The notes below the pieces were generated by a model. That model was given only the letters and a program-made list of their open reading frames with translations. It searched no databases and was not told the DNA's origin. From contig NZ_CP125370.1 of the NCBI RefSeq assembly GCF_030034735.1, positions 5,915,553-5,979,552 of the forward strand: a stretch of DNA of 64,000 bases, read 5' to 3'. Shown piece by piece: positions 36,100 through 60,600 of this stretch. The position numbers and the translations under genes were made by a program. The DNA comes from Paenibacillus sp. RC334. GTDB lineage: Bacteria; Bacillota; Bacilli; Paenibacillales; Paenibacillaceae. The stretch's first letter is position 1. Each line of letters begins with the position of its first letter.

Positions 36100-37796
36100 C
36101 TGCGAGCTTGTTTCCCTGGGATGCCATCATTGGCTACTTAAAATCGGCTGGAGTTCGGCATCTCTTTGGATTACCAAGTGATGATCTCAAAATCGTATCG
36201 TCACTCCCTTCGTCGGGTATGGATTTTATTTTGTGCAAAGATCAGCGTAATGCTGTGTTCATGGCAGCAGGCTATGCACTCACAACCAACCAGATGTCCG
36301 TATGTGTTGTAGGTAAAGGCCCTGCGCTCAGTAATACACTTACGGGGCTGCTGGAAGCGAAGAACCTTGGTGCTCCGCTTTTACTTTTGGCGCTTGGCAC
36401 TGGAGGAGACAAGCTGGGTACCCGATCCTTTCAGGAGGCAGATCAAATCTCACTCGTGAAGCCGCTCGTAAAATGGGCTTACCGTGTCGAGCATGTGGAT
36501 CGACTTGTATGGGCGCTGGAGCGAGCGGCTTTTTTGGCGATCAATGGGGCTCCAGGTCCGGTCTATATTGAACTACCCGAAAACCTGATGGACCAGCCTG
36601 TGCCGACAGGGCTTCAGTTTATTCCGCCAGAAAAGCTTTCGTGCTCTCCGTCTCTTCGGGAGCTGGATGCGGCATGGGAGATTATCAAGACTGCTCGCAG
36701 GCCTGTCATTTTGGTCGGAGGCGGGATGAAGTCCGTTACAAATGATGTAATCGGGATATTCGCTGATCTGTGCGGAGCAGCCTTGTTCGCAACCGCCTCG
36801 GGACGGAGCGCAGTTGATGAAGAGAACGAGCTTTTCTGTGGGGTGGCCGGGCTCTATACGGATCTCAGTCTGAGACAAATCTGGAAGGAATCTGATGTAG
36901 TGATTGCGCTGGGCAGCCGATTGGAAGAAACGGCTACGTTTGAGTGGGATATTTTTCTAGAGGATACACCTTTAATTCAGGTCAATGTCGAGCTGGAGGA
37001 TTTTGCACACGAATACCGGGGTGTCAAAGTGCTTGGAGATGGATATGCAGCATTAGAGCAGTGGGTTCAACGGTACGGACATAAACCTGATGGAGCGTGG
37101 CTTGAAACGATCAGAAGGTGTAAGCAGAAGGCATTTTCTAATAGAGCCATTTATCTGGAGGAGCTGAAAAAGGCCCCTGGAATTCACGTTCCAGAGCTGC
37201 TGGAGATTATTCAGACAGATTTTCCAGAAAAAATGGTGCTTGTTCAGGAAAATGGATTGCAGGATATGTGGTCTTACTTTTATCCATATTTTTGCTTCAT
37301 GCAAGGTTCTCTTTCAATTGTTCCCAGTGACCAAACGAGCCTTGGATTCGGTGCGGCTGCTGCTTTGGGAGCAAGCCTAGCAACAGAACGTCCAGTAGTG
37401 GCACTGGTAGGGGACGGTGCGTTCAATCTCTTCTGTTCGGATTTTATGACGGCTGTGCAGTATCAAATACCGCTGATTTATCTCGTGCTCAATAATGGCG
37501 GGTATGGTTGGTTGCAAAATCAGATGAACTATAAGCACCTTTCAGGGCAGTCCCTCCCATTTGTTTCCGAGGCGGCCAAGACAGGAATCCAAATTCCACA
37601 GTATGAGTTTGTGGAAAGTCTTGCGATCCGGAGCAAGGGGGAGGCCCGGAAACAGCTTCAGCTTGCTTGGCAAAAGTATCAGGAGAACAAGCTTGTGGTC
37701 GTCGAGGTATATGCTGATCTTGCGGATGTGCATGAGAAAATCAGTCATGTGTATGGCGACTTTCCTCTCTACGAGCAACAGGCTTCCAAGAATTAA
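36096..37796 (+). CDS. fusD: Thiamine diphosphate-dependent enzyme (acetolactate synthase-like)
   Basis: 566 residues with the three-domain ThDP fold: N-terminal Pyr domain (LFGLPSDDLKIV), central domain, and C-terminal PP domain with the cofactor motif GDGAFNLFC...NNGGYG. At the place of the conserved Glu that activates ThDP, aligned on the GYA anchor, the sequence reads ILCKDQRNAVFMAAGYA, giving Gln50. Family members decarboxylate 2-oxo acids or perform carboligation. In this operon it probably makes the unusual fatty-acid starter. Whether the Gln reflects an altered mechanism or a loss of function is open. Confidence 0.82.
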   Translation: MTASLFPWDAIIGYLKSAGVRHLFGLPSDDLKIVSSLPSSGMDFILCKDQRNAVFMAAGYALTTNQMSVCVVGKGPALSNTLTGLLEAKNLGAPLLLLALGTGGDKLGTRSFQEADQISLVKPLVKWAYRVEHVDRLVWALERAAFLAINGAPGPVYIELPENLMDQPVPTGLQFIPPEKLSCSPSLRELDAAWEIIKTARRPVILVGGGMKSVTNDVIGIFADLCGAALFATASGRSAVDEENELFCGVAGLYTDLSLRQIWKESDVVIALGSRLEETATFEWDIFLEDTPLIQVNVELEDFAHEYRGVKVLGDGYAALEQWVQRYGHKPDGAWLETIRRCKQKAFSNRAIYLEELKKAPGIHVPELLEIIQTDFPEKMVLVQENGLQDMWSYFYPYFCFMQGSLSIVPSDQTSLGFGAAAALGASLATERPVVALVGDGAFNLFCSDFMTAVQYQIPLIYLVLNNGGYGWLQNQMNYKHLSGQSLPFVSEAAKTGIQIPQYEFVESLAIRSKGEARKQLQLAWQKYQENKLVVVEVYADLADVHEKISHVYGDFPLYEQQASKN

Positions 37797-37819
37797 TTTC
37801 AGCGAAGGACGTGGGTACA

Positions 37820-39061
37820 GTGAGAAGACGTGTTGTGGTGACAGGACAGGGAGTCGTAACGCCGGTTGGGCTTAATCTTACAGATTTCTGGAATTCACTG
37901 TTGGAAGGAAAGAGCGGTATCGGACCTGTCACTGTTTTTGATACAGCGGACATTCCGACGAAGATTGGCGCACAGGTTACGGGCTTTGATCCGTTGCAAT
38001 ATATGAGCAAGAAGGAAGCTAATAAAGTAGCACAGTTCACCCAATTTGCCTTGGCGGCTGCCCGTCAGGCAGTCGAGCAATCGAAATTAGTGATTGACGA
38101 GCGGAATGCAGGCCGCGTGGGTGTTATTGTCGGCTCTGGAGCAGGAGGCCTCGACGTCATAGAGGAGAACTACAGGAAATTAACAGAGCTTGGCCCCAAA
38201 AGGGTTTCTCCTTATTTTGTTTCCTCGATGATGATTAATTCAGCGCCTGGTGAAATCTCCATTGCTATCGGAGCCAAGGGACCTTCGTTTGCCGTGGTTA
38301 CGGCTTGTGCTACTGGAAGTAATGCTATCGGTGAGGCATTACGTACGATCCAGTATGGCACGGCAGATGTCGTGGTCGCTGGGGGAGCAGAAGCCAATTT
38401 TAGTCAGCTTGATTTGGCATCTTTTGCGAATATCCATGCTCTTTCCAGACGCAATGAAGAGCCGCAGAAGGCCAGTCGCCCGTTTGATGTGGACCGCGAT
38501 GGATTTGTCATCGGTGGAGGGGCAGGGGTCTTGGTACTGGAGGAACTGGAGCATGCCATGAACCGGGGGGCCACCATTTTGGCCGAGGTTGCGGGTTACG
38601 GATGCACAACCGATGCGTATCATATCACGGCTCCAGATCCCTCGGGCTCCGGTCCGGCAGAAGCGATCAGCATCGCACTGCAGGATGGTGGCTTGACACC
38701 GCAGGAAATCGACTATGTCAATGCCCATGGTACAAGTACGCCGTTTAACGACCGTATGGAGATCAACGCCATTCAGAAGGTATTCGGGGAGCATGCCCCC
38801 CATTTGGCGATATCGTCTATTAAATCCATGACAGGCCATTTAATGGGCGGCGCAGGGGCAGTCGAATTAATTGCAACTGTACAGAGCATGATCCACAGCA
38901 AAGTACCACCGACACTCAATTGCGACAGCCCTGAAGCCCCTGAACTGAATTTTGTCCCGCATGTATATCAGGAACGTGAGGTCCGTGCGGCGATTAGCAA
39001 TTCCTTTGGTTTCGGGGGGCACAACGTCTGTCTTGCTGTTCGCAAGTGGGAAGGGGTATAA
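37820..39061 (+). CDS. fusC: 3-oxoacyl-ACP synthase II (FabF-like)
   Basis: 413 residues of the KAS II family with an intact Cys-His-His triad: Cys163 in VTACATGSNAIGEA, the first His in NAHGTSTPFND, and the second in KSMTGHLMGGAGAVE. It should condense malonyl-ACP with the growing guanidino-acyl chain. The GTG at 37820 places the ribosome site (GAAGGA) 10 bases upstream; the in-frame GTG at 37811 would leave only one base. There is no ketoreductase or ACP gene in the operon, so housekeeping FabG and AcpP are presumably shared. Confidence 0.92.
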   Translation: MRRRVVVTGQGVVTPVGLNLTDFWNSLLEGKSGIGPVTVFDTADIPTKIGAQVTGFDPLQYMSKKEANKVAQFTQFALAAARQAVEQSKLVIDERNAGRVGVIVGSGAGGLDVIEENYRKLTELGPKRVSPYFVSSMMINSAPGEISIAIGAKGPSFAVVTACATGSNAIGEALRTIQYGTADVVVAGGAEANFSQLDLASFANIHALSRRNEEPQKASRPFDVDRDGFVIGGGAGVLVLEELEHAMNRGATILAEVAGYGCTTDAYHITAPDPSGSGPAEAISIALQDGGLTPQEIDYVNAHGTSTPFNDRMEINAIQKVFGEHAPHLAISSIKSMTGHLMGGAGAVELIATVQSMIHSKVPPTLNCDSPEAPELNFVPHVYQEREVRAAISNSFGFGGHNVCLAVRKWEGV

Positions 39062-39065
39062 GCCT

Positions 39066-39473
39066 GTGAGCAAAGAGCTAATCCATATCCCGGATGTGCT
39101 TCCGCACAGGTACCCGTTTCTTCTGCTGGATGGCGTGACTGGGTACGAAACATCGCAATGGGCGAAGGGGTACAAGCTTGTCACCTGGAGTGAGTGGTTT
39201 ATTACAGAGGCTAATCCATACATGCCTTCTATGTTGATCGTGGAGTCGCTCGCACAATTGGCGGCATTCGCTGCGATTGACAAAAAAGGCATTTCATATC
39301 TGACCAACCTTAATGGAGTTCGATTCCATAGCTTGGCGAAGCCAGGGGACCGAATTGATCTCCATTTTCAAGTCAACAAGCGTCGGCGGGGCTATATACT
39401 CGGAAGCGGCCGGGCTTCTGTAGGTGAGCGTTTGGTGGCTGAGGCGGAAGAAATTGTTTCACTTGATCAATGA
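39066..39473 (+). CDS. fusB: 3-hydroxyacyl-ACP dehydratase (FabZ/HotDog-like)
   Basis: 135 residues of the hot-dog fold: the catalytic-loop HRYPFLLLDGV holds the active His, and the central helix is MLIVESLAQLAAFAAI with Glu in the FabZ position. The GHFPGxP stretch between them is divergent. It would dehydrate the 3-hydroxyacyl intermediate before FusG acts; the final 3-hydroxy group of the fusaricidin tail must escape this step. The GTG start is 4 bases after the fusC stop, with GAAGGGG inside the fusC end. Confidence 0.85.
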   Translation: MSKELIHIPDVLPHRYPFLLLDGVTGYETSQWAKGYKLVTWSEWFITEANPYMPSMLIVESLAQLAAFAAIDKKGISYLTNLNGVRFHSLAKPGDRIDLHFQVNKRRRGYILGSGRASVGERLVAEAEEIVSLDQ

Positions 39474-39565: not shown

Positions 39566-42500
39566 ATGAATGACATGCAGTTATATGATTTAACAAATGC
39601 GCAGAAACGTATATGGTATACCGAATTACTCTATCCAGATACGTCAGTGTCACAGCTTTCCGGTACAGCCAAGATGAAGGGCCGTATCCATATCGCTGCC
39701 TTCATGCAGTCCATTAATTTGATTATCAAACAGTATGATGCGTTCCGCATTCGTATCACCTCAGTGGATGGAGTGCCTCAGCAGTATGTCGTTCCTTATG
39801 AAGAGAGACAGTTGGAGTATCTGGACCTTACTCACTATGAAAGTGTATCAGAGGTAGAAGCTTTACTTGAGCAGCACAAAAGCAAACCCCTGCAACTGCT
39901 GGATTCTGAGCTATTCCAGTTTTTGATTGTAAAGATTAGCGAGGATGAGTATTGGATTAATACCAAGATGCACCATATTATTTCTGACGGGATATCAATG
40001 GTGATCTATGGCAATCAATTGACGGAATTTTACATGCAGATCATCCAAGGAAATGAACCGACGCTGAATGACGATTGCTCCTATATTCAATATATTGCAG
40101 AAGAGAACGCATACGAGCTTTCTGACAGATACCAAAAGGACAAGGCATACTGGCTGAATAAATTTTCTGATTTACCTGAACTTACGGGTTGGAAGTCATA
40201 CAATCCGTTATCTCTAAGCACCCGCGCCGTTCGGGAGCATTTTACCGTGCCAGAGGTGCTGTATCACGAGCTGCAGGCATTTTGCCAACAGAACAGGATT
40301 TCTCTGTTCCAGTTCTTCATGGGTGCGATGTATATTTACATACACAAAGTGACGAATCAGCCGGATGTGGTGATCGGTACTTCGTTCGCTAACCGGGGGA
40401 ACAAAAAAGAGAAGCAAAAGATAGGTATGTTCGTCAGCACGGCTGCAGCCAGAACATACGTCGAAAAGGATATGGATGCGTTGAGCTTTCTGCAGGATGT
40501 AGCCAGGGATCAGATGTCAGTCCTGCGGCATCAGAAGTATCCATATAATCAGTTAATTCAGGATCTTAGAGAAATGCATGGTAACAAGGATATTCAGCGG
40601 CTTTTTGGCGTTTCAATGGAATACCGCCTTATCAATTGGGTTGATTTGGATGAGGTGCGCATTTTGACGGATTATGATTTCTGCGGTGACGAAGTGAATG
40701 ATTTCGTGCTTCATATCGTGGAGATCCTGGATGAAGGCGAGCTGGTACTGGATGTCGATTACCGGACGACGCTGTTTGAACGCAGTGAAGTAACGGACAT
40801 GGTTTCCCAGTTGCTTACGATCGCCGAGCAGATCATTCATGCACCGCAGCTTCCCATCGCAGAGGTAACCCTGCTGGGAGAAGCGGATGAGCAATCCATT
40901 TTGGCTCTCTCGGAAGGGATTGTAGCTGATTATCCGCGTGAAAAGACAATTCATGGCTTATTCGAAGAACAAGCCGAGCGCACGCCAGATCATGTTGCCG
41001 TTCAGATGGGCGAGCAGAGCATTACATATCTAGCTCTAAACGAGCAGGCTAACCAGCTTGCGAGATATTTGCGCTCCGAGGGAGTAGGAGCAGATACGCT
41101 CGTAGGGATCATGGCTGACCGTTCCTTGGAGATGATCGTCGGCATTATGGGCATTTTGAAAGCAGGAGGTGCCTATGTACCGATTGATCCCGATTATCCC
41201 GAAGAACGTATCCATTATATGCTGGAGGATTCGGGAGTCCATCTGTTGCTCACCCAAAGCCATCTATGGGAGAGTACCACATTTGACGGAAAGCTTGTGA
41301 ATCTGGACGAAGTTGCATCGTATAAAGGGGACACTTCAAATCTGGAGAGCATTTCGGGGGCGAGCAATCTTGCCTATGTTATCTATACGTCGGGTACAAC
41401 TGGCAAGCCGAAGGGAACGCTGATCGAGCATAAAAATGTAGTTCGACTGCTCTTTAACGATAAAAATTTATTTGATTTCAGCGCTCAGGATACGTGGACG
41501 CTATTCCATTCGTTCTGCTTCGATTTTTCGGTTTGGGAGATGTATGGAGCCCTTCTCTACGGAGGAAAATTGGTGATTGTTCCGTCTCTTACAGCCAAGA
41601 GTCCAGCAGCTTTCCTGGAGTTGTTGAAAGACAACAAAGTCACCATTTTGAATCAGACGCCGACGTATTTTTATCAGGTGATACAGGAAGAACTGGCGCA
41701 CTCTTCGACAGAGCTTAGTCTTAGAAAAATCATTTTTGGTGGAGAGGCCTTAAGCCCATCTCTTCTGGGAAACTGGCGGTTTAAGTATCCTGATGTGCAA
41801 CTGATTAATATGTATGGAATTACGGAAACAACGGTCCATGTCACCTACAAGGAAATCACGGAACGTGAGATTGAAGCGGGGAAAAGCAATATTGGCAGAA
41901 CAATTCCGACACTTAGCGCTTACATTTTCGATGAGCAAAGACGTCTGCAGCCTGTCGGGGTTCCAGGGGAGCTATACATCGCGGGCGACGGTCTTGCCCG
42001 AGGGTATTTGAACCGTGCAGAGTTAACAGCCGAGAAATTCGTAGAGCATCCGTTTCGGGCGGGAGAGCGAATGTACCGTACTGGCGATCTGGCTCGCTGG
42101 TTGCCTGATGGTAATATCGAATATTTGGGCCGGATCGACCATCAAGTCAAAATACGTGGCTACCGAATTGAGCTTGGCGAGGTGGAAGCCCAAATTCTCA
42201 AGGTTTCGAATGTACGGGAAACGATTGTCCTTGCAAGGGACGACGAACAGGGACAAAAATTGCTTTGCGCCTACTACGTTGCCTCCACCGACCTTTCGCC
42301 GAGCGAATTGAGGTCTCAGCTGGCCGTAGAACTACCAGCTTATATGATCCCTTCTTATTTTGTCCGGCTGGAGCAAATGCCGCTTACGCCAAATGGCAAG
42401 CTCGATCGCCGCGCGCTGCCAGCTCCTGAGGGCAGTGTACAATCCAGCGAGGTTTATTTGGCTCCGAGAACTGCTGCGGAAGCGCAGCTAGTGCTAATCT

Positions 42501-42690
42501 GGCAGGATATTCTGGGAGTTGCCCGCGTCGGCGTTAGAGATAATTTCTTTGAAATTGGTGGTCACTCCTTGCGGGCGACATTGCTCGTTTCACGGATTCA
42601 AAAAGAGTTGGGGGGCAGCCTTTCGTTGCGGGAAGTGTTTCAGTGGCCTACGGTCGAGTCCATGGCACGACTGGTGAAAGAACGCATTCC
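39566..42690 (+). other. NRPS module 1: C(starter)-A(Thr)-T
   Basis: The first condensation domain has HHIISDG (His codons at 39971) and no upstream module, so it acts as the lipo-initiation domain that joins the fatty acid to residue 1. The adenylation signature ([28 protein letters not shown]) gives DFWNIGMVHK, the threonine code. The carrier motif is EIGGHSL. There is no epimerase, so L-Thr is expected, whose side-chain hydroxyl closes the ring in fusaricidins. Confidence 0.88.
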
Positions 42691-45600
42691 GACTGTGTAT
42701 GAATCCATCCCACGGGCGGAGGAAAGCGAAGCTTACCCCGTGTCCTCAGCACAGAAGCGGTTATTTGTGTTGAGACAAATGGACGGAGGAGAGCTCAGCT
42801 ACAATATGCCTGGAGCATTCACAGTGGACGGGCCGTTGGATCGCGTTCGGCTGGAATCTGCGTTCCAGGCACTGATCCAGCGTCACGAATCCCTGAGAAC
42901 CGGCTTCTATATGAAGGATGGAGAGCTTGTTCAGCGTGTGCATAGGGATGTGCCGTTCGCGTTGGACTACACAGAAGCTTCGGTGGAGGAGACGGATACG
43001 CTCGTACGCAGCTTTATCCGTGCCTTTGATCTCAGCCAGGCCCCATTACTGCGTGTTGGCTTGGTGAAGCTGGAAGAGGAACGTCATCTGTTGCTGTTTG
43101 ATATGCACCATATCATTTCGGATGGGGTCTCCATTCAAATACTGGTGGAAGAACTCACCTCATTGTATCAGGGAGAACAGCTGCCAGAACTGCACATCCA
43201 GTACAAGGATTATGCTGTATGGCAACGGGAGCATTCAGAGAACCAGTGGAAAGAGCTTGAAGCATACTGGCTGCAGGCTTTTGAAGGGGAACTGCCTGTA
43301 CTTGATTTGCCTACGGATTATCAAAGACCTTCTGTTCGCAGCTTCGAGGGTAGCCGAATTGATTTTACATTGGATGCGTCCGGCAATAAGGCAATACAGG
43401 AACTCGCATCCCGTACAGGTACTACGCTGTATATGGTATTGCTGGCTGCTTATTCGGTCCTGTTGCACAAATATACGGGGCAGGAGGACATCATCGTAGG
43501 TTCTCCGGTGGCCGGAAGACCGCAAGCGGAGCTTGAGAGCATCATCGGGATGTTTGTCAATACACTGGCTATGCGCAGCTACCCGGCGGGAGACAAGACA
43601 TTTCAGGATTATCTTCTCGAAATCAAGGAAACGGCGCTCAAGGCGTTCGAGCATCAGGACTATCCTTTGGAAAAACTGATTGAGAAGCTGGGTATAGGAC
43701 GTGATGTCAGCCGCAATCCACTCTTTGATACTCTGTTGGTATTGCAAAATACGGAGCAGGCAGAGCAGGACATGGGCGGGCTGCGCTTTACTCCTTACCC
43801 GCTGGAGACCGTTACAGCCAAATTTGACCTGTCACTTAATGTAGAGGAGCAGGGGGCAGAGCTAGCTTTTGGTTTGGAGTATAGCACGGTTTTATATCAG
43901 CGAGAGAGTGTAGAGCGACTTGCTATGCACTTGCTTCGGGTTCTGCATGCGGTCGCTGTCAATCCCCAGTTAAAGCTGGCGGAGATTGAGATGATCACAC
44001 CGGAGGAGAAGGTGCAGATCATTGAAGAATTCAACGCGACATCGGCTCCTTATCCAAGTGAGAAGACTATTCATGAGCTGTTCGCAGAGCAAGTAAAACG
44101 TACACCGGAGCAGACGGCGCTTGTATTCGGCAACGTCCAGCTAACCTACCTCGAATTGGAAGAGAAGGCGGGGCGGCTGGCCCAAACACTGCGTCGCTTG
44201 GGAACGTTGAGGGAGCAGCCTGTGGCCGTGATGGGCGGACGAAGCATCGAGATGGTCATTGGTATGCTCGCGGTGCTTCAGGCAGGTGGAGCCTATGTGC
44301 CGATTGATCCTGATTACCCGGAAGATCGGGTTCGTTATATGCTTAATGATTCCGACGCCAAGCTATTATTGGTGCAAAAGGGCGAGCTTATAAGTGTAGA
44401 CTACGGTATACCGATTGTCGATCTTAGCAGTGAAGAGGCCTATGCAGCTGAACCTGCCCGGCCGGAGACTGCTCAGGGATCGCAGGGGCTTGCTTATGTC
44501 ATCTATACATCGGGTACGACAGGTAGACCGAAGGGCGTTATGGTTGAACACCGGAACGTGGTCCGTCTGGTCAAAGAGACCAACTATGTGGAGTTGAATG
44601 AATCCACACGAATTTTGCAGACAGGAGCCGTGGCCTTTGATGCTTCTACATTCGAAATATGGGGAGCGTTGCTTAATGGTGGGCAGCTCTATTTCGTAGA
44701 GAATGACGACATTCTGATTGCTGATAGGCTCAAAGCGGCTATTGCCAAGTATGGGATTACGACATTGTGGCTTACTTCACCGCTTTTCAATCAGCTTTCC
44801 CTGCAAGATGAGTACCTGTTCAGAGGGCTAAAAACATTGCTAGTCGGCGGTGACGTACTGTCCATATCTCATATGAACCGTGTGACCGAGGCCAATCCTG
44901 ATCTTGTCCCTATCAATTGCTATGGTCCGACAGAGAATACGACCTTCTCCACCACCTACAAGATTCCGTGTCATGCCGAAGGGGTCGTGCCGATTGGTCG
45001 CCCAATTAGTAATTCGACCGCTTATGTGGTCAATGGATCGCTTCAATTACAACCCATTGGTGCTTGGGGCGAACTAATTGTCGGCGGTGAAGGTGTAGCA
45101 CGCGGATATCTCAATCGTCCTGATCTCACAGCAGAGAAATTTGTCCCTAGTCCTGTCAAGGACGGAGAATCATGCTACCGAACTGGGGATTTGGTACGCT
45201 GGCTTCCAGATGGGAATTTGGAGTTTAAAGGAAGAATTGATGAGCAGGTCAAAATACGTGGTTACCGCATCGAACTCCCTGAAATCGAGGCCCAACTGGC
45301 CAAGGTGGAGTCAGTAATCGACGCCGTAGTGGTCGTTCGCGCGGATGAGCTTGGAGAGAAGCAGCTTTGCGCTTATTATGTGGCGGATCGTACGCTCACG
45401 GCAGGCGAAGTACGTCTTTCCCTATCGCAGGTACTTCCGGGCTATATGATTCCATCCTACTTTATCCAGATGGATCGTATGCCATTAACGTCAAACGGAA
45501 AAGTGGACCGCAGATCTCTGCCAGCTCCTCAAGTGGGTGCGCATACGGGACGGAAGTATACGGCTCCCCGTACACCGGCGGAAGAAGCCTTGGCGTCTGT

Positions 45601-48600
45601 TTGGCAAGGGGTGCTGGGTGCCGAGCAGGTGGGGATCCATGACAATTTCTTTGAATTGGGAGGAGACTCCATTAAGGCCATTCAGGTTTCGTCACGGTTA
45701 CTACAGGCTGGTTATCGGTTAGAGATGAAGGAACTGTTCAAATCTCCAACCATTGCGGAGCTAAGCGCGCAAATACAAACGGCTGTGCACATGGCTGAAC
45801 AAGGAACTGTGCGTGGATCGGCCTCCTTGACTCCAGTCCAGCAGTGGTTCTTTGGACGGAAGCAGGCAGAGCCGCATCACTTCAATCAAGCGGTCATGCT
45901 GTACCGTGAACAGGGATTTGAGGAAAAGGCCTTGCACCATGTGCTGAAAAAACTCGCTCAGCACCATGACGCCCTCCGCATGGTTTTTCGTCAGACAGAA
46001 CAAGGCTACGAGGCTTGGAATCGTGGTCTTGAAGAAGGAGAGCTTTATAGCCTGCAAACCGCTGATTTACGGAATGAATCCAATCCGGTCGCAGCCATTA
46101 CAGTGTTGTCGGACGACATTCAGCGCAGCATCAATCTGGCAGAGGGTCCGCTGTTGAAGCTAGGACTTTTCCATTGTCAGGATGGAGACCATCTCCTGAT
46201 CGTGATCCACCATTTGGTGGTGGACGGAGTATCCTGGCGGATTTTGTTTGAGGATATCGCAGCGGGCTATGAACAGGTGACTCAAGGACAGGTGCTGACA
46301 TTCCCGCAGAAGACGGACGCTTTCCGTGACTGGGGTGATGCTCTTTCCCGTTATTCGGAAAGCCCGGCAATCGAAATTCATCAGGCGTATTGGAAAGACC
46401 TGGAAAGACAGAAACTTGAGCAGTTACCGAAGGATGAGGCTGTAGAAAGCCTTCTTTTACGGGATAGCGAAGTGGTAACAGCACAATGGACTGTAGAAGA
46501 AACCGACCAACTGCTGAGAAAAGCCCACCGTGCTTACCAAACGGAGACGAACGATCTGCTATTGACCGCTCTGGGCATGGCGGTATCCAAGTGGTCCGGC
46601 ATTGGAAAGATTGCTGTGAATCTCGAAGGCCACGGTCGTGAACCGATTATACCGAATATCGACATTACCCGTACCGTCGGCTGGTTTACAAGCCAATATC
46701 CGGTGATTTTAGACTTGGGCGATGACCCGGAAGTGGCAGCCTTGATCAAGTCTGTGAAAGAAGGGCTGCGCCGAATTCCGAACAAAGGCATCGGATATGG
46801 GTTACTCAAAACCATGGCAAGTCAGGTGGACGCAGACAGCTGCAGCTTGCAGCCTGAGATTTCTTTTAACTACCTGGGGCAATTTGATCAGGATTTGCAG
46901 GGAAGCTCGTTGCAGATTTCTCCTTATCCGACCGGAAGCGCCCAAAGCTTGTTGGAGGAACCAGCCTATACGCTAGATATCAATGGCATGGTGACGGATG
47001 GAGCCCTGACTCTGACGATTACTTATAACGGAAAACAGTATAAGTCATCTACGATGGAACAACTCGCTGGATATATTGAAGACAGCTTGCGCGAGCTTCT
47101 TCATCATTGCGTAACCCAAGAGAGATCGGTATTGACACCAAGCGACGTGCTTGCGAAAGGGCTGAGCATTGCTGATTTGGAAGAGCTTTCTAAGCAAACC
47201 AGCCACATAGGTGATATTGAGAATGTATACAGTCTGACGCCGATGCAGAAGGGCATGCTGTTTCATGATATGTTTGAGCCGCATACAGGTGCTTATTTCG
47301 AGCAGGCTGCCTTTGACTTTAAGGGTAGCTTTGATCCGGCCGCCTTTGGACACAGTCTGGATGCAGTGGTGGAGCGTCATGCCATCCTGCGCACGAACTT
47401 TTATAGCGGATGGGGTAGCGAGCCTTTACAGGTTGTATTTCGGCACAGAGGCGCCAAACTGGTGTACGAAGATCTGCGGGAGATGAACGCAACGCAGCGC
47501 GAAGCTTATTTGAAGACGTTTGCTGCAAAGGACAAAGCACAGGGCTTCAACCTGTCTGAAGATGAGCTTCTCCGTGTTTCGATTTTGTGCACAGGTGAAG
47601 ATAGCTTCCGTCTTTTGTGGAGCTTTCACCACATCGTCATGGATGGATGGTGTGTTCCGTTAATTACGCAGGAGGTATTTGAGCATTATTTTGCCCTCCT
47701 GGAAGGAAGAGCACCTCAATTGGCGGAGGTTCAGCCGTATAGTCGATACATCGAATGGCTGGAACAGCAGGATGAAGCAGCTGCGGCCAACTATTGGAGC
47801 CGTTATCTGGCTGGTTATGACCAGCAGACGCTTTTACCTCAAGTCGGGGAAGCAAGTATAGGGGAAGGTTATCTATCAGAGAAACTGAATTACACCCTCG
47901 ACAGGGAATTGACCGGGCGTCTGGAAAAGGTAGCCAGAGACGCTCATGTCACGATGAATATATTGCTGCAATCCATCTGGGGCATTGCGCTTCAACGATA
48001 CAACGGTAGCCGAGATGTCGTATATGGAAGCGTAGTATCAGGAAGACCAGCAGAAATCCCGGGCATTGATCGGATGATCGGTTTGTTCATCAATACGATT
48101 CCAGTTCGTGTGAAGACGGAAGAAAATCTCCCCTTCAATGTCCTGATGAAGCAGCAGCAGGAACAATATATGGCTTCTCATATGTATGACACCTACCCAC
48201 TGTTTGAGATTCAGGCTCAGACCGATCAGAAGCAGGATTTAATCTCACATATTATGGTATTTGAGAACTATCCTGTCGAGGAGGAGGTAGAGCGTCTGGG
48301 TGGTGGCGAGGCTGCCTTTGAGATTGAGGACGCGGAGCTTCTTGAGCAAACGAACTACGATTTTAACCTGATCGTCCTGCCGGGTGAAGAGATGAAATTG
48401 CTTTTCCAATACAATACGCTCGTCTATGACTCATCCAATATAGAGCGAATCAGGGGACATCTGGTTCACCTTATGGAACAAATTGTGAAGAACCCTGGAA
48501 TATCCGTGGATGCTCTGGAACTGGTCACGCCGCAAGAGAGAGACCACATCCTGAACATATGGAAAGATATCGCAGTCCCATATGAGCATTATGCCGAGCT

Positions 48601-51600
48601 TCATGCACAAGCACAGACTGCACCTATTGGCCAACCTAACGTATACATTGTGGATGACCATTTCAGGTTGCTGCCTGTCGGTGTCGCTGGCGAGCTATGC
48701 ATCGCAGGTGTCGGATTTACGCGGGAGCATCATAACCATCCTGAATTAACGGATGAAAAGTTCGTGGACAATCCGTTTGCTCCAGGGGAGCGCATGTATC
48801 GTACGGGTGACTTGGCTCGTTGGTTGCCGGATGGCACGATCCAGTACCTGGGCCGAGTCGACCATCAGGTCAAAATCCGCGGCTACCGGGTCGAGCTGAG
48901 CGAGGTAGAAGCGCAAATGCTCAAAGTGCAATCTGTTCAGGATGTTGTGGTCATGGCTGTAGAGGGTGATGACGGTCACAAGGATCTATTCGCTTACTTC
49001 GTAGCTGACCAGACGATTGAAATAAGTGAGTTACGAGCGGTTCTATCGGAGCTGTTACCGGTGTATATGATTCCCTCCCACTTCGTGCAATTGGAAAATC
49101 CGTTACTGACGCCAAGCGGAAAAATAGATCGAAAAGCGTTGCAGGGAGAGCGCGGATGGGCAGTTGCTTCATCTGTAGCTCCAAAGACACCTGTGGAAAT
49201 TCAATTAGCTAAAATCTGGCAAGAGGTGTTGGGTGTAGAGAACGCGGGAGTGAAGGATAATTTCTTCCATTTTGGAGGTCACTCACTGCGTGCAGCCCTG
49301 CTAGTCTCACGAATTCGCAAGGAAATGAACCGTGAGATTAGTCTGAGAGAGGTGTTCCAGTCACCTACAATTGAAGGATTGGCTTATGCCATTGAGGGCT
49401 ACACACCGCTCGATTTTGAGGAAATTCCTACGGCTGGACTACGTGAGCACTACCCATTGTCCTCAAGCCAAAAACGGCTGTTTATTCTAAGTCAGCTGGA
49501 AGGCGGAGAGCTGAGCTACAATATGCCGGGTATCCTTACGGTTGAGGGAGCCTTGGATCGGGAACGGCTGGAGCAGGCATTCCGTCGCCTGATTCATCGC
49601 CATGGGTCGCTGCGTACCCGTTTTGTGACTGTTAACGGTGAACCCGTACAGCAGATCCTGACGGATGTACCATTTACTGTGGAATATGCGGAGTTGAGCG
49701 GGGAAGAGGCAGAAGCTTCCGTTCAGCAATTTGTCCGTCCTTTCGATCTTGGCGAAGCTCCATTGCTGCGGGTCGGCCTTATCCGAATTGCGCATGAGCG
49801 CCATTTACTGTTGTTTGATATGCATCATATTGTCTCAGATGGTGTTTCTATGAATATTCTTATAGAAGAGTTTCTCCGCTTCTACCAAGAGGAGGGCTTA
49901 TTACCTGCACTACAGATCCAGTACACAGACTATGCGGTATTTCAGCAGGAGCAACTCGGAAGCGAACGTCTCAAAGCCCAGGAAGCTTACTGGCTGGATG
50001 CATTCCGCGGAAGCTTGCCAGTGCTGGATTTGCCGGGGGATGAAGTCCGTCCTGCGGTGCGAAGCTTTGCGGGGGACCGGATCGACTTCCGTATTGATTC
50101 TTCTCTGAGCGGTTCACTCCAGGAGCTGGCTACCCGGACGGGTTCTACTCTGTTCATGGTACTGCTGGCAGCCTATACAGCGCTCTTGCACAAGTACACA
50201 GGTCAGGAAGATGTCATTGTCGGCTCACCTGTGGCGGGAAGATCCCATGCGACACTCGAAGGTCTCATCGGTATGTTCGTCGGCACACTGGCACTGCGTA
50301 CTTATCCAGAAGGGGAGAAGTCTTTCGAGACTTATTTGCAGGAAGTGAAGGAAACAGCGCTGCAGGCGTATGAAAACCAGGATTATCCGTTCGAGGAGCT
50401 GGTAGAAAAGCTGGAGCTTCAGCGTGACCTGAGCCGCAACCCGTTATTTGATACCATGTTTGTCCTGCAAAATATCGAGCAGGGAGAACAAGAAATAGAG
50501 AGATTGCGTTTCACTCCTTACGATAATGTACATCCTGCTGCCAAGTTTGACCTCACGCTGACCGTAAGTGAAGCGGATGGGGCATTGGATTGCACGCTTG
50601 AGTACTCGACTGCGATCTACAAGCGAGAGACTGCTGAACGAATGACAGGTCATTTTGTACAGCTTATTCGGGAAGCAACCGCCAATCCGGCGATGCCGTT
50701 GTCATCCCTTGATATCGTGACACCTCAGGAAAAATCAAAGCTGATGCAGGAGTCGGCCGAAGCCAGAGCAGATTATCCTCGTGACAAGACGATTCATGCG
50801 TTGTTCGAGGAACAGGCTGCTCATACTCCGAATGCAGTAGCAGTCGTATGTGAAGAGGCAACCCTGTCCTACAGCGAGCTGAACGAACGGGCAAACAGAC
50901 TTGCCAGAACGCTCCGCGAGCGTGGCCTCCAACCAGATGGTTTGGCTGGAATCATGGCCGATCGTTCCCTCGAAATGGTCGTCGGGATTTTGGCCATCTT
51001 GAAGGCGGGCGGGGCCTATGTCCCTGTGGACCCTGAATATCCGGAGGACCGCATTCGCTTTATGCTGGAGGATTCGGGAGCCAAGCTATTGCTGACACAA
51101 GCACATCTGGAGAAACGCGTCTCCTTCGCCGGGGACATCATCAATCTGGACGAGACGGCTTCCTACAAGAAAGATATCTCAAACTTGAAGCCTGCAGCCG
51201 GACCGGAGCATCTTGCCTATGTCATCTACACATCGGGTACGACAGGCAAGCCCAAGGGAACGCTGATCGAGCACAAAAATGTAGTTCGCCTACTCTTTAA
51301 TGATAAAAATTTGTTTGATTTCGGTCCTCAGGATACGTGGACACTGTTCCATTCATTCTGCTTTGACTTCTCCGTATGGGAAATGTATGGGGCATTGCTG
51401 AATGGAGGACGTCTGGTCATCGTTCCATCGCTTACGGCGAAGAGTCCGGATCGATTCTTGCAATTGCTTAAGGACCAGAAGGTCACCGTCTTGAACCAGA
51501 CGCCGACATACTTCTACCAGTTACTACAGGAAGAGCTTGCTCATCACGCGGCAGAGCTGAGCCTCCGCATGATTATCTTTGGTGGAGAGGCATTAAGCCC

Positions 51601-54600
51601 GGCCTTGCTCAAGGACTGGAGAACGAAGTACCCGCAAGTGCAGCTCATCAACATGTATGGCATTACCGAAACGACTGTACATGTAACCTACAAGGAAATT
51701 ACAGATCTGGAAATTGAACAGGGCCGCAGCAATATCGGCATCACGATTCCGACGCTGCGTGCGTACATTCTGGATGAACAGCGCCGTCCGCAGCCGATTG
51801 GCATTCCGGGTGAACTCTACGTGGCGGGCGAAGGTCTGGCGCGCGGCTACCTGAACCGACCGGAATTGACGGAAGAGAAATTTGTTGCTCATCCGTTTGC
51901 AGCGGGCGAGCGTATGTACCGCTCGGGTGACTTGGCACGTTGGCTGCCTGATGGCAGCATGGAGTATTTGGGACGGATTGACCATCAGGTTAAAATCCGT
52001 GGTTACCGCATCGAGCTGGGCGAAGTGGAAGCGAAGCTGCTCCATGCCCCGTCTGTAAGGGAGGCCGTTGTGCTCGCCCGGGAGGATGGAAGTGGGCAAA
52101 AGGTGCTTGTCGCCTATTTCACTGCCGATCAGATGCTGACGGTAGGCGAATTGAGAAAAGCCTTGGCTGCTGAACTGCCAGCTTATATGATTCCGTCTTA
52201 CTTCATGCAATTGGAACAGATGCCATTGACGCCAAATGGCAAGCTGGATCGCAAGGCGCTTCCTGCTCCGGAGGCCAATGTGCAGACAGGAGCGGTTTAT
52301 GAACCGCCAAGGACGAAGGCTGAGGAAGCTCTGGCGTCCGTATGGCAAGGTGTACTGGGAGCGCAGCAGGTCGGCATCCATGATCATTTCTTCGATCTGG
52401 GTGGTGACTCCATCAAAGCGATCCAGGTATCCTCAAGATTGTTCCAAGCCGGGTATAAGCTGGAGATGAAGGATCTCTTCAAATATCCGACAATTGCCGA
52501 GCTAAGCCCGTATCTTCAGGCAGCCGGACGCACAGCAGAACAGGGCGAGATCCAAGGTGCAGCGGAGCTAATGCCAATTCAGCGTTGGTTCTTTGAACGC
52601 CATACAGCGGAGCCGCATCATTACAATCATGCCGTTATGCTCTATCGGAAAGACGGCTTTGATGAAGCTGCACTCCGATTGACGGTGACCCAAATTGCTA
52701 CCCACCATGACGCGCTGCGTGTGGTCTTCCGTTCTACAGAAGCTGGATATGCAGCCTGGAATCGGGGAACGGACGAAGGTGAGCTCTACACATTGGACAT
52801 CGCTGATGTGCGGCAGGCAGAAGATCAGGCAGCTGCCGTTCAAGCCAAAGCCGATGACATCCAGGCAAGCTTTCACCTGGAAGACGGCCCACTGTTCAAG
52901 CTAGGCTTGTTCCATTGTGACGATGGCGATCATTTGTTAATTGTCATCCATCACCTCTTGGTTGACGGCGTATCCTGGCGCATCCTGTTTGAGGATATCG
53001 CAGCGGGATACGAGCAGGCGTTGAATGGACAAGCCATCGTTCTTCCTCAAAAGACCGATTCGTATCTTGTATGGTCTGAGCAAGCGGCGAAGTATGCAGC
53101 AGGGCCTGCTCTGGACAAGGAGCGTGCATACTGGCAGCAGATCGAGGAGGCGATTTTGGCTCCACTGCCAAAGGATAAGGATCAGGAGCCGGGCACCATT
53201 CGGGATACCGAGTCGGTAACGGTAACGTGGTCTGCGGAAGAAACGGACCTGCTGCTGCGACAAGCGAACCGGGCGTATCATACGGAGACGAATGATTTGC
53301 TCTTGACTGCTCTGGGGGCAGCAATACAGCGCTGGACAGGCATGGAGCAGATTTTGGTCAATCTTGAAGGGCATGGACGGGAAATGATTATACCTGAACT
53401 GGATATCACCCGTACCGTGGGCTGGTTCACAACCCAGTATCCGGTTCTGCTGAACCTTCAAGACGGACAGGAAGTATCAGCACGAATCAAGCGTATCAAG
53501 GAGAATTTGCGCCAGATTCCACACAAAGGAATCGGCTACGGCCTTCTGAAATATATGGCACTGGAGAAAAGTGGCGGGTTCGGCGTAGAGCCGGAGATTT
53601 CCTTCAACTATCTTGGACAGTTTGATCAGGATTTGGAGGGGAATGCCCTCAGCCTATCCACACATTCAGTCGGTAAGGCGCTCAGCGACCACACACCGCA
53701 GCAGTATGCTCTGGATGTGAATGGCATGATTGCCGAAGGCCAGCTATCACTGACGGTTACGTATAGCACCAGGCAGTATCGCAAGGAGACGGTGAATCAT
53801 TTTGCTGAATTATTACAGTCCAGCCTTAGCGAGGTCATCCGGCATTGTGTGGCGCAGGAGCGTTCACAGCTTACGCCAAGTGATGTTTTGTTCCAGGGAT
53901 TAACGTTGGAGCAGTTTGATCGACTTACAGCTCAGACGGCCCACATTGGAGAGATTGAAGATGTGTACAAGCTTACGCCAATGCAGAAGGGGATGCTGTT
54001 TCACAGCCTGCTGGAGCCAGACTCCTCTTCATACTTCGAGCAGGCTACGTTCGAGCTGCGAGGCAGCTTCGATGTAGATACTTTCTTCGAGAGCTTTCAG
54101 GCTTTGGTGCAAAGACATGCCATACTACGTACCAGCTTTTACAACAACATTGGTGATTTACCGCTGCAAGTTGTCTTTAAGCAACGGCCAATCCCACTGC
54201 ACTACGTAGATTTGCGTGCCGCAACTTTGCAAGAGCAAGAAGCCCAAATCAAGGCTTACACTGCTGAGGATATGGCTAAGGGGTTCAGCTTGGCGGAAGA
54301 TCCGCTGATGCGAGTAACCGTCTTGCAAACAGAACAAAGCTCACTGGTATTATGGAGCTTCCACCATATTGTCATGGATGGCTGGTGTATCCCGATCATT
54401 ACACAGGAGCTGTTCGATTATTATTCTGCTATGCGACAGCAGGTACAGCCTGTGCTGCCGCCAGCTCAGCCCTATAGCCGTTATATTGAGTGGCTTGATG
54501 CACAGGATGATGAGGAAGCTTCAACATATTGGAGCCAATACCTCAAGGACTATGATGGGAATACCGTATTGCCGGAAGGCAAGACGAAATCTCAGGCCAA

Positions 54601-57600
54601 AGAAGCGGGCTATGTTCTAAATGAGTATGTTCTCCATCTGGGTGCATCCTTGACCGATAAAATGGATGTTGTGGCGAAGCGAAACCACGTGACCGTCAAC
54701 ACCTTAATGCAGACAGCTTGGGGACTGATTCTTCAACGTTACAATGCCAGCTCGGATGTGGTTTTCGGCGGCGTTGTGTCAGGTAGACCGGCTGAGATTG
54801 CAGGTATCGAAAATATGGTGGGTCTGTTCATTAATACAGTACCTATCCGTGTACAGTCCTCCAAAGACGAAGCCTTTGTCGAGGTCATGAAACGTACACA
54901 GGCACAATCGCTGGCAGGCCGTGCTTACGACACTTACCCACTATATGAGATTCAGGGGAAAACAACCCAAAAGCAGGACCTGATTTCTCATATTATGATC
55001 TTTGAAAATTATCCGCTCGACGAACAGGTGGAACAGTCGGGTAATCAAAATGAGGACAATCTCGAAGTCGCGAACTTCACCATGTTTGAACAAACGAACT
55101 ATGGCTTTAACCTGGTTGTGATTCCAGGCGAGGATATCAAGGTCTGCATACGTTACAATGCTTTGGTCTACGAACAAGAAAGCATTGCACGAATCGGTGG
55201 ACACTTGATGCAAATGCTCGATCAGGTAGCTACTCGTCCGCAGGCGACCATAGAGGAGCTGGAGATTGTAACATCTGAGGAACGGGTGAAACTGCTAGAC
55301 TGGGGCGGCAAGGCCCACACCTATCCAAGTGATCAGGGTCTGCATACCTTGTTTGAAGAGCAGGTTGTCCGTACGCCAGATAAGATTGCAGCTGTTAACG
55401 GCGATATTCAGGTCACGTATCGGGAGCTGAACGAGCAGGCGAACAGATTGGCCTCCACCTTGATCGCTCAGGGACTTCGGAGTGAACAAGTGGTTGGTCT
55501 GTTGGCGGATCGGTCTGTAGAACTGCTTGTCGCCATCATGGGTGTGCTCAAAGCGGGCGGGGCCTATGTACCTATTGATCCTGAATATCCGCAGGAACGG
55601 ATTCAGTATATTCTGAAGGATTCTGGCGCTGGAATTCTGCTCACACAGAGCCACTTGACGGAGTTGGCCTCTTTTGAGGGAACGGTTATGGAATTGGATT
55701 CCCCGCACATCTACGGCAACGGGGTGGATAATCCCAATCTGCCAGTGAGAGGAAACGATCTGGTGTATTTAATCTATACCTCGGGTACAACAGGGAATCC
55801 GAAGGGAACCATGATTAACCATAAAGGGATCGTGAACTACATCTGGTGGGCCAATGAGGTCTACTGTGCGGAGCAACCAACAGATTTCCCGCTTTACTCA
55901 TCCATTTCATTTGACCTGACGCTGACATCAATTTTCACTCCATTAATTAACGGAGGATTGGTACGGATTTACGATGGTATAGATAAAGCGGAGGTTGTTC
56001 AGCATATTTTGCGCGAAAATGCGGTGGACATTCTCAAGCTGACGCCGACTCATCTCAGCCTTATTAAAGATATGACCATCCCGGCGGAAAGTCGCATTCA
56101 GCAGCTCATTGTGGGTGGAGAGAATTTGACCACACATTTGTCGCAAACCATCACAGATCTCTTTGGCGGCAACATCAAAATCTACAATGAATACGGTCCA
56201 ACCGAAACGGTCGTCGGCTGCATGATTCACCTGTACGATCCTGTGAAGGATACACGTGAATCCGTACCTATTGGATTGTCGGCAGACAATATATACATCC
56301 ATATCCTGGATGAACAACTTCGTCTCGTGCCATTAGGCGTGGAGGGCGAAATGTACATCGCAGGGGACGGGGTAGCCCGCGGATACCTGAACCGTCCTGA
56401 GCTTACCGCAGAAAAATTCATTAGAAATCCGTTTGCTTCGGAAGGAAATATGTATCGAACCGGGGATTTGGCTCGTCGCCTTCCTAATGGAGACATTGAG
56501 TACATTGGACGTATTGACCATCAAGTTAAAATACGGGGCTATCGTATAGAGCTTGGTGAGATTGAGGCCAAGCTACAGGATATTCCACTCGTCGAGGAAG
56601 CTCTCGTTGTTGCGTGGGCAGATGCCCATGGACAGAAGTCTCTGTGTGCCTACTTCGTAGCTGATCGGGAAATGTCTGTCAGCGAGCTGCGGAACGAACT
56701 TTCTGGACTGCCTGCGTATATGATCCCGTCCTACTTCGTCCAACTGGACGTGATGCCTTTGACACCGAATGGCAAGCTGGACCGTAAGGCACTGCCTGAA
56801 CCGAACTCGGGTGTGAAGGCGGGCGCGGCCTTTACTGCTCCACGGACGGATGTGGAGAACATTTTGGCTTCGATCTGGCAGGGTGTGCTAGGTGTTCCGA
56901 TTGTCGGCATACATGACAATTTCTTTGAGCTTGGAGGCGACTCGATCAAATCGATTCAAGTATCATCAAGGCTTCTCCATGCAGGCTATAAACTTGAGAT
57001 GAAGGATTTGTTCGGCTATCCAACCGTTGCAGAGCTGGCCCAGCGCGTTAACGCAGTCAGCCGAATTGCAGATCAGAGCGAGGTACACGGAGCGGTAAGA
57101 CTGGGACCTGCCCAGCGCAGATTTTTCGACGAGCAGTCGACGGACCTGCACCACTTTAATCAGTCGGTCATGTTGTACAGACGGGAAGGCTTCAATACCG
57201 ATGCGCTCGCCAAGGCTGTTCGGAAAATTGCAGAACATCATGATGCGCTGCGACTGGTGTTACGCCAAGGAGAGCGGGGATTTGAAGCCTGGAACCGCAG
57301 CTTAGGTGAGGGTGAGCTTTATAGCCTCCAGATCCACGATCTGCAGGATGAAACAGACCCGGCTTCGGCAATAGAAGCAGGTGCGGAAGCCATTCAGCGC
57401 AGCATCTCTCTCGGTGATGGACCTCTCTTAAGATTGGGTTTATTCCGCTGCGCGGAAGGCGAACATCTGTTAATCGTTATTCATCATCTGGCTGTTGATG
57501 GCGTATCCTGGCGCATCCTCTTTGAGGACCTGCAGGAGGGTTACGAGCAGGCAGCACGCGGAGAAGCTGTCAAGCTTCCGCAGAAGACGGATTCGTACCG

Positions 57601-60600
57601 TGCATGGGTTGAGGGAATCACACAATATGCGAACAGTCCGGCGGCTGAACAAGAACGCAGCTATTGGGCAGAGGTAGAAGGGGATGGCTTCGCCCCTCTT
57701 CCAAAAGACAAGGTAGACGGTGCTCTTCTCATCAAAGACAGCGAGACTGTTACGGTGAGATGGTCACCAGAAGAGACAGAGCAGTTCCTGAAAGAGGCAA
57801 ACCGCACTTACAACACGGAAGTTAACGATCTGCTCCTGACGGCCCTCGGCATAGCTGTTCACGAGTGGACCGGGATCGAACGTGTAGGCATCCTTCTGGA
57901 AGGACATGGACGGGAGCCTGTTGTACCTGAACTGGATATCACTCGCACTATAGGCTGGTTTACAAGTCAATACCCTGTCGCCCTTGAGATGAAAGAGGAA
58001 CTGGAGATCGGCGCTAGAATCAAGCGTGTCAAGGAAGGCTTGCGTCACATTCCTAACAAAGGTGTCGGATATGGTATTTTGAAATATTTGAGCGACGTAT
58101 CCGATGTCTCCTCCTTCTCTGCTGAACCGGAGATTATCTTCAACTATCTGGGACAGTTCGACCAGGATCTTGCAGGGGGGATGATGGAGGTATCGCCTTA
58201 CTCAGTAGGATCTGAGGTCAGTGAGCAGATGGTACAGCATCAGGCATTGAACATTAATGGACTGATTGCCGAAGGACGACTTCAGCTTTCGGTCAGCTAT
58301 AACCGTCAGCAGTTCCACACGGAGTCGGTAGAGAAGTTTGTCGGCATCCTGAAGAACCGTCTCAGCGAAGTCATTGGACATTGTGTACGAAAGGAAAGAA
58401 CGGAGCTTACACCAAGCGACGTACTCCTCAAAGATATCAGCCTGGAAAAAATCGAGGAGCTGGAAGAGCAGACACGGCATATCGGCAGTATTGAAAATAT
58501 GTATAAACTGACACCGATGCAAAAGGGAATGTTGTTCCACAGCTTGCTGGAGCCTCATTCGGAAGTCTACTTTGAGCAGGCTAAATTTGAAATTCACGGA
58601 GCATTCTATCCTGAGGATTTCAAACGCAGCTTAAAGCATCTGATGAAACGGCATGCCATATTGAGAACGAATTTCCATGCCGGATGGGGCGATTTCCCTA
58701 TACAGATTGTGTTCAAAGAAAGAGCGTGCGACTTCGTATACGAGGACCTGCACGAGCTGGAATCCGATGAAATTGAAGCGCGTCTTGCAGCTTATACTGC
58801 TCAGGACAAAGCAAGAGGCTTTGATCTTGCCGAAGAAGCATTGCTGCGTGTAACCATTCTACGGACGGCAAAAGAGGCTTACCATCTGCTATGGAGCTCT
58901 CATCACATCATTTTGGATGGCTGGTGTATGCCTCTTGTGCTTCAGGAAGTGTTTGAAACGTACGGGGTTCTGCGTGAGCAGAGGGAGCCTGAGCTTGCTG
59001 CTGCTGTATCGTACAGCCAGTATATTCAATGGCTGGAGGAGCAAGGTGAGGAAGAGGCATCCTCTTACTGGAGAGGTTATCTGGAAGGTTACGAACAGCA
59101 GACGAAGCTGCCGCAAGCGACAACACAGCCATTGGCAAAAGCAGAAGCCTACGTATCAGAGAAGCTTGTATTCACGTTGGATGCGGAGCTGACCGAGCAG
59201 CTGGAACAAGTGGCCAAGCAGAACCAGGTAACGATGAACACGCTGATGCAAGCAGCCTGGGGAATCGTGTTGCAGCGCTACAATAGAAGTCAGGATGTCG
59301 TCTTCGGAAGTGTGGTATCGGGAAGACCTGCCGAGATTCCCGGTATCGAAAGCATGATCGGTCTCTTCATTAATACGGTTCCGATTCGGGTACAGGCCGA
59401 GGGAAGCGATACGTTCTCCCATGTGATGAAAAGACAGCAGGAATTATATTTGGCAGGACATGCTTATGATTCCTATCCGCTCTATGAGATTCAGGCACAG
59501 AGCGAACAGAAGCAAGATTTAATTTCCCATATTATGGTATTCGAGAATTATCCGGTAGAGGAGCATCTGGAAGAGAAAATTGCCAGTGAAGAGGCTGAAT
59601 ACCAAATTACGGATGTTCAGATGTTTGAACAGACGAATTATGATTTTAACCTCATTGTGCTGCCAGGCCGTAATCTGGAGTTCTTGTACCGTTACAATGC
59701 CCGCGTCTATGATCGGGAGAGCGTGGAACGGATTCAAGGGCACTTGATAAAGATTCTGGAAAGTGTATCTGTTCAGCCTGCCATTCGTATTGATGAGCTG
59801 GAGCTGATCACGCCAGAAGAGAAATCGCAGATTATAGAGGTGTGGGGCGATACAGCAGCTCCTTATCCGCGTGAGAAGACCCTTCACGGCATATTTGAGG
59901 AAAAGGCTGCGCTCACACCGGATCGTACAGCACTTATCTATGGCGAAACGAAGCTTACCTACGGAGAATTTCATCAGCAGGCGAACCGCCTCGCACGTAC
60001 GTTGCGTGCCCAAGGGGTCAGACCGGACGAGCCGGTCGGCATCATGGTTGAACGTTCGCTTGAGATGATCATCGGCATCCATGCCATTCTAAAAGCGGGC
60101 GGGGCCTATGTACCGATTGATCCGGAATTCCCGGAAGATCGTATTCGCCACATGCTGGAGGATTCGGGAGCGAAGCTTCTGCTGACGAAGAACCATCTCA
60201 AAGATCGCTTTCCGTTCACTGGCACGCTCCTGGCACTCGATGACCCGCAGGCGTATCATGCTGATGACTCGAATCTGGAGCCACTCGCCGGGCCGGAGCA
60301 TCTGGCGTATATCATTTACACGTCAGGTTCAACCGGTAAGCCGAAAGGCGTAATGATTGAGCATCGATCTGCCGTCCATACGTTGAGTCAGTTGGAAGCT
60401 GAATATCCGATGCTGGCAGGTGATCGATTCCTGCTCAAAACGACATTCACCTTTGACTTCTCCGTACCGGAGCTATTCTGCTGGTTCTTTGGGCAGGGAA
60501 CTCTCGTGATCCTGCCGCAGGGCGCGGACAAAGATCCGGTGGCATTGCTGGAGGCCGTGGATACGAGCTGTATCACGCATCTCAATCTGGTACCGTCGAT

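Follow-up and report, generated by a model that had tools for sequence, protein, structure and literature searches.

Loss of most of adenylation domain 3 in a fusaricidin-type synthetase of Paenibacillus sp. RC334 lies on a diverged and most likely exchanged cassette

Introduction

What can a six-module antibiotic synthetase make once the domain that sets its variable residue has largely disappeared, and how does such a gene arise? The question is raised by a stretch of 64,000 nucleotides (nt) from Paenibacillus sp. RC334 (hereafter the window; contig NZ_CP125370.1, positions 5,915,553 to 5,979,552), which holds a fusaricidin-type nonribosomal peptide synthetase (NRPS) gene, fusA. An earlier note on this DNA had claimed a natural in-frame loss of most of adenylation (A) domain 3 in an otherwise complete synthetase, and this is confirmed here by Pfam profiles, by the motif map and by the roughly 900 extra bp that relatives carry. 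What is new is that the loss appears to be carried by a diverged, exchanged cassette instead of representing a simple local deletion.

Domain organization of FusA and of its third module

The open frame at 39557-62389 has an ATG at 39566, from which a synthetase of 7607 amino acids (aa) is encoded with no internal stop:

39566..62389, forward strand: fusA-type hexamodular NRPS, 7607 aa (motif map, tree of condensation (C) and epimerization (E) domains, AMP-binding profile search)

The motif map gives the module order C1-A1-T1, C2-A2-T2-E2, C3-(A3 stump)-T3, C4-A4-T4-E4, C5-A5-T5-E5, C6-A6-T6-TE, where T stands for carrier and TE for thioesterase domains, and the published FusA layout has the same order (PMC10562733). 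Both the motif map and the C/E tree support six modules, of which modules 2, 4 and 5 contain an E domain and the last ends in a TE, and the gene is colinear with the fus loci of relatives, with the tail genes upstream. The pocket regions of A1, A2, A4, A5 and A6, compared as aligned regions and not as ten-residue codes, are near-identical to those of the P. polymyxa entry P0005; the published FusA assignment of these domains is Thr, Val, Thr, Asn and Ala, respectively (PMC10562733). A complete A3, which sets the Tyr/Val/Ile/Phe position, was not found. On sequence grounds, the window gene is thus classified as fusA by layout, orthology and tail genes, while failing one defining feature, the complete A3. 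The following features were delineated in and around module 3:

47213..48520, forward strand: C3 condensation domain of the D-donor (DCL) type with intact HHIVMDGWC (C/E tree, motif map; ratio of nonsynonymous to synonymous rates, dN/dS, of 0.065 between the window and genome G060 over residues 2550-2930)
48590..48637, forward strand: deletion junctions YEH/YAEL (48589/48590), AQ/TAP-IGQP (~48616-48625) and QP/NVYI (48637/48638, absent in strain Aloe-11) (alignment)
48626..48859, forward strand: remaining end of the A3 core with the motif A6 and A7 regions (matches PheA, 1amu, from about residue 348)
48860..49141, forward strand: A3 lid (AMP-binding_C) with motif A8 and the A10 lysine (Pfam, motif map, model)
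49148..49375, forward strand: T3 carrier, attachment Ser codon 49283-49285 (GGHSL) (Pfam, motif map, alignment)
49418..50725, forward strand: C4 condensation domain of the LCL type with HHIVSDGVS, grouping with C2 (C/E tree)

Pfam profiles run on 48200-49501 matched the end of a Condensation domain, AMP-binding_C (22.1 bits, under the 24.5 cut-off) and PP-binding, and no AMP-binding domain was matched in module 3. Likewise, the genome-wide AMP-binding search gave five matches in the fusA frame and none in this module. The only A-domain motifs found there are YRTGDL, RGYRVEL and SGKIDR, which we take to be motifs A7, A8 and A10; the carrier motif GGHSL is also present. The A3 stump comprises the last ~78 core residues (from IGQP, 48626) and the lid, and therefore keeps the motif A6 and A7 regions; it aligns to PheA (1amu) over a stretch that starts at about residue 348 and almost reaches the PheA end. 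A relic of the motif A1 region, YAELHAQAQ, survives as well (YAEL at 48590-48601). Compared with eight intact relatives (see below), the window lacks ~29 residues after PYEH and ~270 residues between the relic and IGQP. Since the relic stands between two gaps, at least two deletions of ~29 and ~270 codons are required. An extra 4-codon loss past IGQP occurs in the window but not in Aloe-11, and all three length changes identified in module 3 preserve the reading frame.

The extent of the loss stated in the earlier note is therefore only partly right. The ATP- and amino acid-binding parts are gone as claimed, but the frame does not jump cleanly from the C-A linker, given the surviving A1-region relic and the retained A6 and A7 regions. 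C3, the lid, the carrier with its Ser and the open 7,607-residue frame are all as it described. An AlphaFold2 model of the stump with T3, of moderate confidence (mean predicted local distance difference test score, pLDDT, 72.3; predicted template modeling score 0.42; 47 sequences), predicts the strands of the core remnant, the lid and the carrier helices, with pLDDT below 50 for residues 1-33, which include the junction. To activate an amino acid, an A domain needs the parts that bind ATP and those that form its pocket. Because both are gone, module 3 should not activate an amino acid itself, and FusA would no longer select its third building block on its own.

Intact relatives and other records with the same loss

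We searched 75 genomes of the genus, including that of the window. Among the matches listed, nine other genomes have a fusA gene that is colinear on both flanks at 81-88% nt identity, and all nine hold ~900 bp more at the module 3 junction. The frame is unbroken in eight of them, which encode 7907-7909 aa, as compared to 7607 aa in the window. The ninth, G025, was excluded from per-domain counts for a frame stop, so that eight of nine relatives were used. Its fusA gene (A3 intact; L124-L125) is interrupted by a single stop codon within A4, giving 4397 + 3513 codons, and its 36-kb stretch contains 501 N.

A protein collection was searched with FusA residues 2850-3300. Among the best 120 of 672 scored candidates, three entries (P0002, P0003 and P0006) align over 100% of this region. 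P0003, the FusA of Paenibacillus sp. Aloe-11 (7612 aa), has the same A3 loss with 92% identity over 100% of the query region. P0002 (7607 aa), most likely from another isolate, has it too, with 25 residue differences from the window over the full 7607. P0006 (6575 aa) shows no difference from residues 1033-7607 of the window protein, and both may stem from one strain. Intact FusA proteins form clusters of 10 (P0004) and 252 (P0005) members at 90%, counted as sequences and not as strains; by these counts, the A3 loss in FusA looks rare. The proposal of a natural A-domain deletion as a new variant thus stands insofar as the loss is natural and present in other records, but it is not unique to this strain (Aloe-11, P0002) and appears to reside on an old, exchanged cassette.

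In a screen of 536 A8 motifs in 121 proteins, 51 lacked motif A3 and/or motif A5 by regular expression. Four of these are the FusA deletion entries (P0001, which is the window, P0002, P0003 and P0006), four lie near truncated N-termini (one each in P0023 and P0038, two in P0093), and the remaining 43 have motif A3 and fail the loose A5 pattern alone. No further internal module without both motifs was found among these 536 A8 motifs. A literature search gave no report of a natural FusA A-domain loss, although absence from print is weakly tested by it; for Aloe-11, a fusaricidin-type NRPS gene and antibiotic activity are described, and the excerpts of that paper do not mention the A3 loss (PMC4199945).

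A diverged cassette probably exchanged between fusA backgrounds

The A3 loss is contained in a short segment that stands out against its surroundings:

48383..49190 (approximate), forward strand: diverged recombinant cassette that begins at the end of C3, stops shortly before T3 and carries the A3 loss (nt identity windows, alignment, trees, shared residues)

Over 64 kb, the window and the same-species genome G060 align in three main blocks that are 97.8, 97.4 and 96.3% identical. Per-kb identity is mostly 95-99% outside module 3, with lower values at A2 (92.5 and 94.2) and at 34 kb (94.5). In contrast, the cassette is only 75-79% identical in nt to the eight intact relatives (200-codon window at 3001) and has sharp edges; 30-codon windows within it range from 59 to 90%. 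Its protein is 83-97% identical to that of Aloe-11 per 30 residues outside the junction. For the stump (residues 3026-3190), mean dN and dS against the intact relatives are 0.128 and 0.905, as compared to 0.032 and 0.325 among the intact relatives in the same columns. Residues that the window and Aloe-11 have in common, and that none of nine intact FusAs has, number 40 in the 268 cassette residues and 1 in the other 7,339. The trees disagree in the same way: the cassette tree (residues 2940-3207 without 2999-3026, one outgroup) joins the window with Aloe-11 at 100, outside the intact clade (85), whereas in the flank tree (residues 2085-2939 and 3210-4311) the window groups with G060/G063 at 98.

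From the shared derived residues and the conflicting cassette and flank trees, we infer that homologous recombination most likely carried the loss between fusA backgrounds, as a segment bounded by the C3 end and a point just before T3. This segment is a plausible exchange unit for an A domain. The loss would then sit on an old, diverged allele; a fresh local deletion was set aside in view of the cassette divergence, the sharing with Aloe-11 and the disagreement of the two trees.

The window and P0002 show no difference within FusA residues 1663-3458 (~44552-49939; 1,796 residues, spanning the cassette), with a largest-gap P of ~0.03 for 25 random points, a hint at a recent shared exchange. A second tract of this kind was noted over A2:

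44183..45565, forward strand: second recombinant tract, 95-96% nt identity to G028/G026 and 90-92% to G060 of the same species, with hardly any change in the pocket region (nt identity windows)

Maintenance of the gene and likely product

Outside the cassette and the A2 tract, FusA dN/dS equals 0.110 (window-G060), 0.105 (window-G063) and 0.098 (G060-G063), and triplet arithmetic on these ratios gives ~0.13 for the window branch and ~0.10 for the other two. FusA outside the cassette is under normal purifying selection. Within the stump, the window and Aloe-11 differ at 11 of 165 residues, which corresponds to ~0.03 substitutions per site if neutral. With a neutral stump and the whole gene dead since the window/Aloe-11 split, 27-30 nonsense codons would be expected over both lineages, yet both frames are open.

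The explanation we tentatively put first is that residue 3 is bypassed, or the chain released early, in place of normal hexapeptide fusaricidin synthesis. The synthetase would still be made and largely maintained, with module 3 reduced to C3-stump-T3 without ATP- and amino acid-binding parts. An intermediate of 15-guanidino-3-hydroxypentadecanoic acid (GHPD), GHPD-Thr-Val, would be handed past module 3 to module 4, yielding the des-residue-3 lipopentapeptide GHPD-Thr-Val-Thr-Asn-Ala (predicted [M+H]+ 784.49 cyclic, 802.50 linear); alternatively, it would be released early as GHPD-Thr-Val acid (predicted [M+H]+ 516.38). Early release alone would leave the conservation of modules 4-6 unexplained. 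We prefer bypass or early release to decay and cross-loading because laboratory A-domain deletions are the nearest guide: in the engineered plipastatin synthetase, deletion of A6 gave module-skipping products and deletion of A7 gave early release (PMC5984369). Engineered removal of FusA module 6 in P. polymyxa WLY78 led to a five-residue product (PMC10562733). Module 3 has an incomplete A domain of its own, but may yet be loaded by another A domain; a DCL-type C4 downstream, which a skipped module does not strictly need, is not observed. C3 is unchanged, keeping its D-donor signature HHIVMDGWC and grouping with C5 and C6 in the C/E tree.

Several observations weigh against this explanation. 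The dead-gene calculation weakens if the cassette reached both backgrounds recently. The cassette also evolves faster than the rest: stump dN/dS is 0.141 against intact relatives and 0.099 among them, and relaxation is seen in the lid (0.156-0.204 in five comparisons with the window versus 0.073-0.108 in four among intact genes) and in the C-A linker (0.185-0.339 versus 0.077-0.117). Private changes are similarly raised, with 15/268 in the cassette versus 146/7339 elsewhere in Aloe-11, and 5/268 versus 41/7339 in the window. C4 stays LCL-type with no shared derived residues, showing no adaptation to a D-Val donor coming directly from E2, and no shared change pointing to bypass adaptation was found in T2, E2, C3, T3 or C4 of the window and Aloe-11 FusAs. 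Finally, WLY78 no longer showed antifungal activity once FusA module 3 had been removed by engineering (PMC10562733). No switch of C4 towards a D donor was seen in its tree grouping or its shared residues. The earlier note listed skipping, charging in trans and stalling, which is a fair list of outcomes; sequence alone does not choose among them.

A broader proposal, possible but doubtful, is that of a selectively maintained, horizontally mobile A-domain-loss allele: gene conversion-like exchange of the cassette would, in a single step, make a five-residue line of a fusaricidin line with six modules.

Alternative explanations

Under silent decay, the synthetase would make nothing useful, the strains would naturally lack production, and the frame would be open because the cassette arrived recently. 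This reading appears somewhat unlikely. It accords with the faster evolution of the cassette noted above and with breakage of fusA elsewhere, namely the G025 stop in A4 and a frameshift in fusA of NRRL B-30509 (PMC4408349). However, the frame is full-length in three distinct sequences (window, P0002 and Aloe-11), the three length changes are all in frame, and dN/dS outside the cassette is normal. The lid is 93-97% identical between the window and Aloe-11 as compared to 74% for the junction, although intact genes rank alike (90-97% and 84%).

Loading of a carrier by another A domain is established in other NRPSs. For FusA, we consider it unlikely that T3 is charged in this way, most simply by A2 (Val), which would give a Val3 hexapeptide of the fusaricidin A type (predicted [M+H]+ 883.56). 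The C and T active-site motifs of module 3 are intact without a complete A domain of its own, and the unaltered D-donor C3, T3 Ser and L-donor C4 of the window and Aloe-11 suit insertion of an L residue 3. Against this, deletions of plipastatin A6 and A7 gave skipped or truncated products, never the full peptide (PMC5984369), and T3 shows no shared change in the window and Aloe-11. Moreover, no new stand-alone amino acid A domain was found among the five AMP-binding frames shorter than 1300 aa (of 41 genome matches, the other 36 being in longer frames), which comprise an acetate-CoA ligase, an MbcS-type acyl-CoA synthetase, the fus ligase, an A-T-reductase NRPS and a 426-aa A-core fragment of a split NRPS. 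Among these short frames and the fus genes, no stand-alone A domain that could compensate for the loss was found; A2 of FusA or other modules could act as the loader.

Repetitive NRPS genes are prone to assembly collapse, and the matching P0006 may come from the very same strain, but an assembly or sequencing artefact in the window genome is extremely improbable, as the same loss is present in P0003 (Aloe-11) and, with 25 residue differences, in P0002, and if A domains of a single gene had collapsed onto each other, the result would not be a cassette like that of Aloe-11 and unlike every intact relative.

Neighboring genes and genomic context

Upstream of fusA, the remaining fus genes are arranged as in G060:

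32525..39473, forward strand: upstream fus genes for a short-chain dehydrogenase/reductase or enoyl reductase, AMP-binding ligase, aldehyde dehydrogenase, thiamine pyrophosphate enzyme, ketoacyl synthase and FabA-like dehydratase (colinear with G060)

No extra amino acid A domain was found among these genes (32525..39473). The window is the final 64 kb of a 5,979,552-bp contig, which stops 1.6 kb past fusA (62390-64000). In G063, G028 and G027, the match lies near 97 kb of contig C1, the start point of the record being different. The split NRPS mentioned above is interrupted within an A domain (L130:3-2529; G000:C1 ~2,900,502-2,903,028), where a 426-aa A-core open reading frame is followed by an overlapping one that starts with the lid. 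Its counterpart in G060 and G063 lies within a 1150-aa open frame, and the split likely reflects a frameshift or sequence error.

Significance

Engineered removal of A domains or modules from NRPSs has been largely trial-based, often with loss of activity (PMC10562733, PMC5984369). Here, a natural removal hits the very domain on which a biocontrol antifungal depends for its variable residue, and it is not confined to a single strain. A working line would reveal what has to remain of a module for residue bypass or for cross-loading. If the line fails, calling such a cluster 'fusaricidin' would misstate its product, which matters for the choice of biocontrol strains. Were the proposal of a mobile allele true, it would be a natural example of a residue removed by losing just one domain, while C, the lid and the carrier stay in place as a pass-through module.

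Comparison with known systems

P. polymyxa FusA (P0005, 7909 aa) shares with the window protein the six-module layout, including the E domains of modules 2, 4 and 5 and the terminal TE, with 91.2% identity over aligned residues; unlike in P0005, the A3 that sets the variable residue is a stump in the 7607-aa window protein. Aloe-11 FusA (P0003, 7612 aa; 94.2% identity overall) has the same A3 loss and the same diverged cassette, but is without the extra 4-codon loss and has other junction residues. Modules without an A domain that are loaded by another one include those of SyrE/SyrB1 and HMWP2; they share with window module 3 a C-T arrangement without a working A domain of its own, and in those systems the loader is known. 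Module 3 of the window would behave as such an A-less module, either skipped or cross-loaded. In module 4 of myxochromide S, unlike in window module 3, the A domain is not known to be lost. That module represents a natural case of module skipping (cited in PMC5984369). The engineered A6 and A7 deletions in plipastatin synthetase are similar in that the A domain is removed while C and T stay; however, they are laboratory-made and give linear products (PMC5984369), whereas the window case is natural and part of the A domain is kept.

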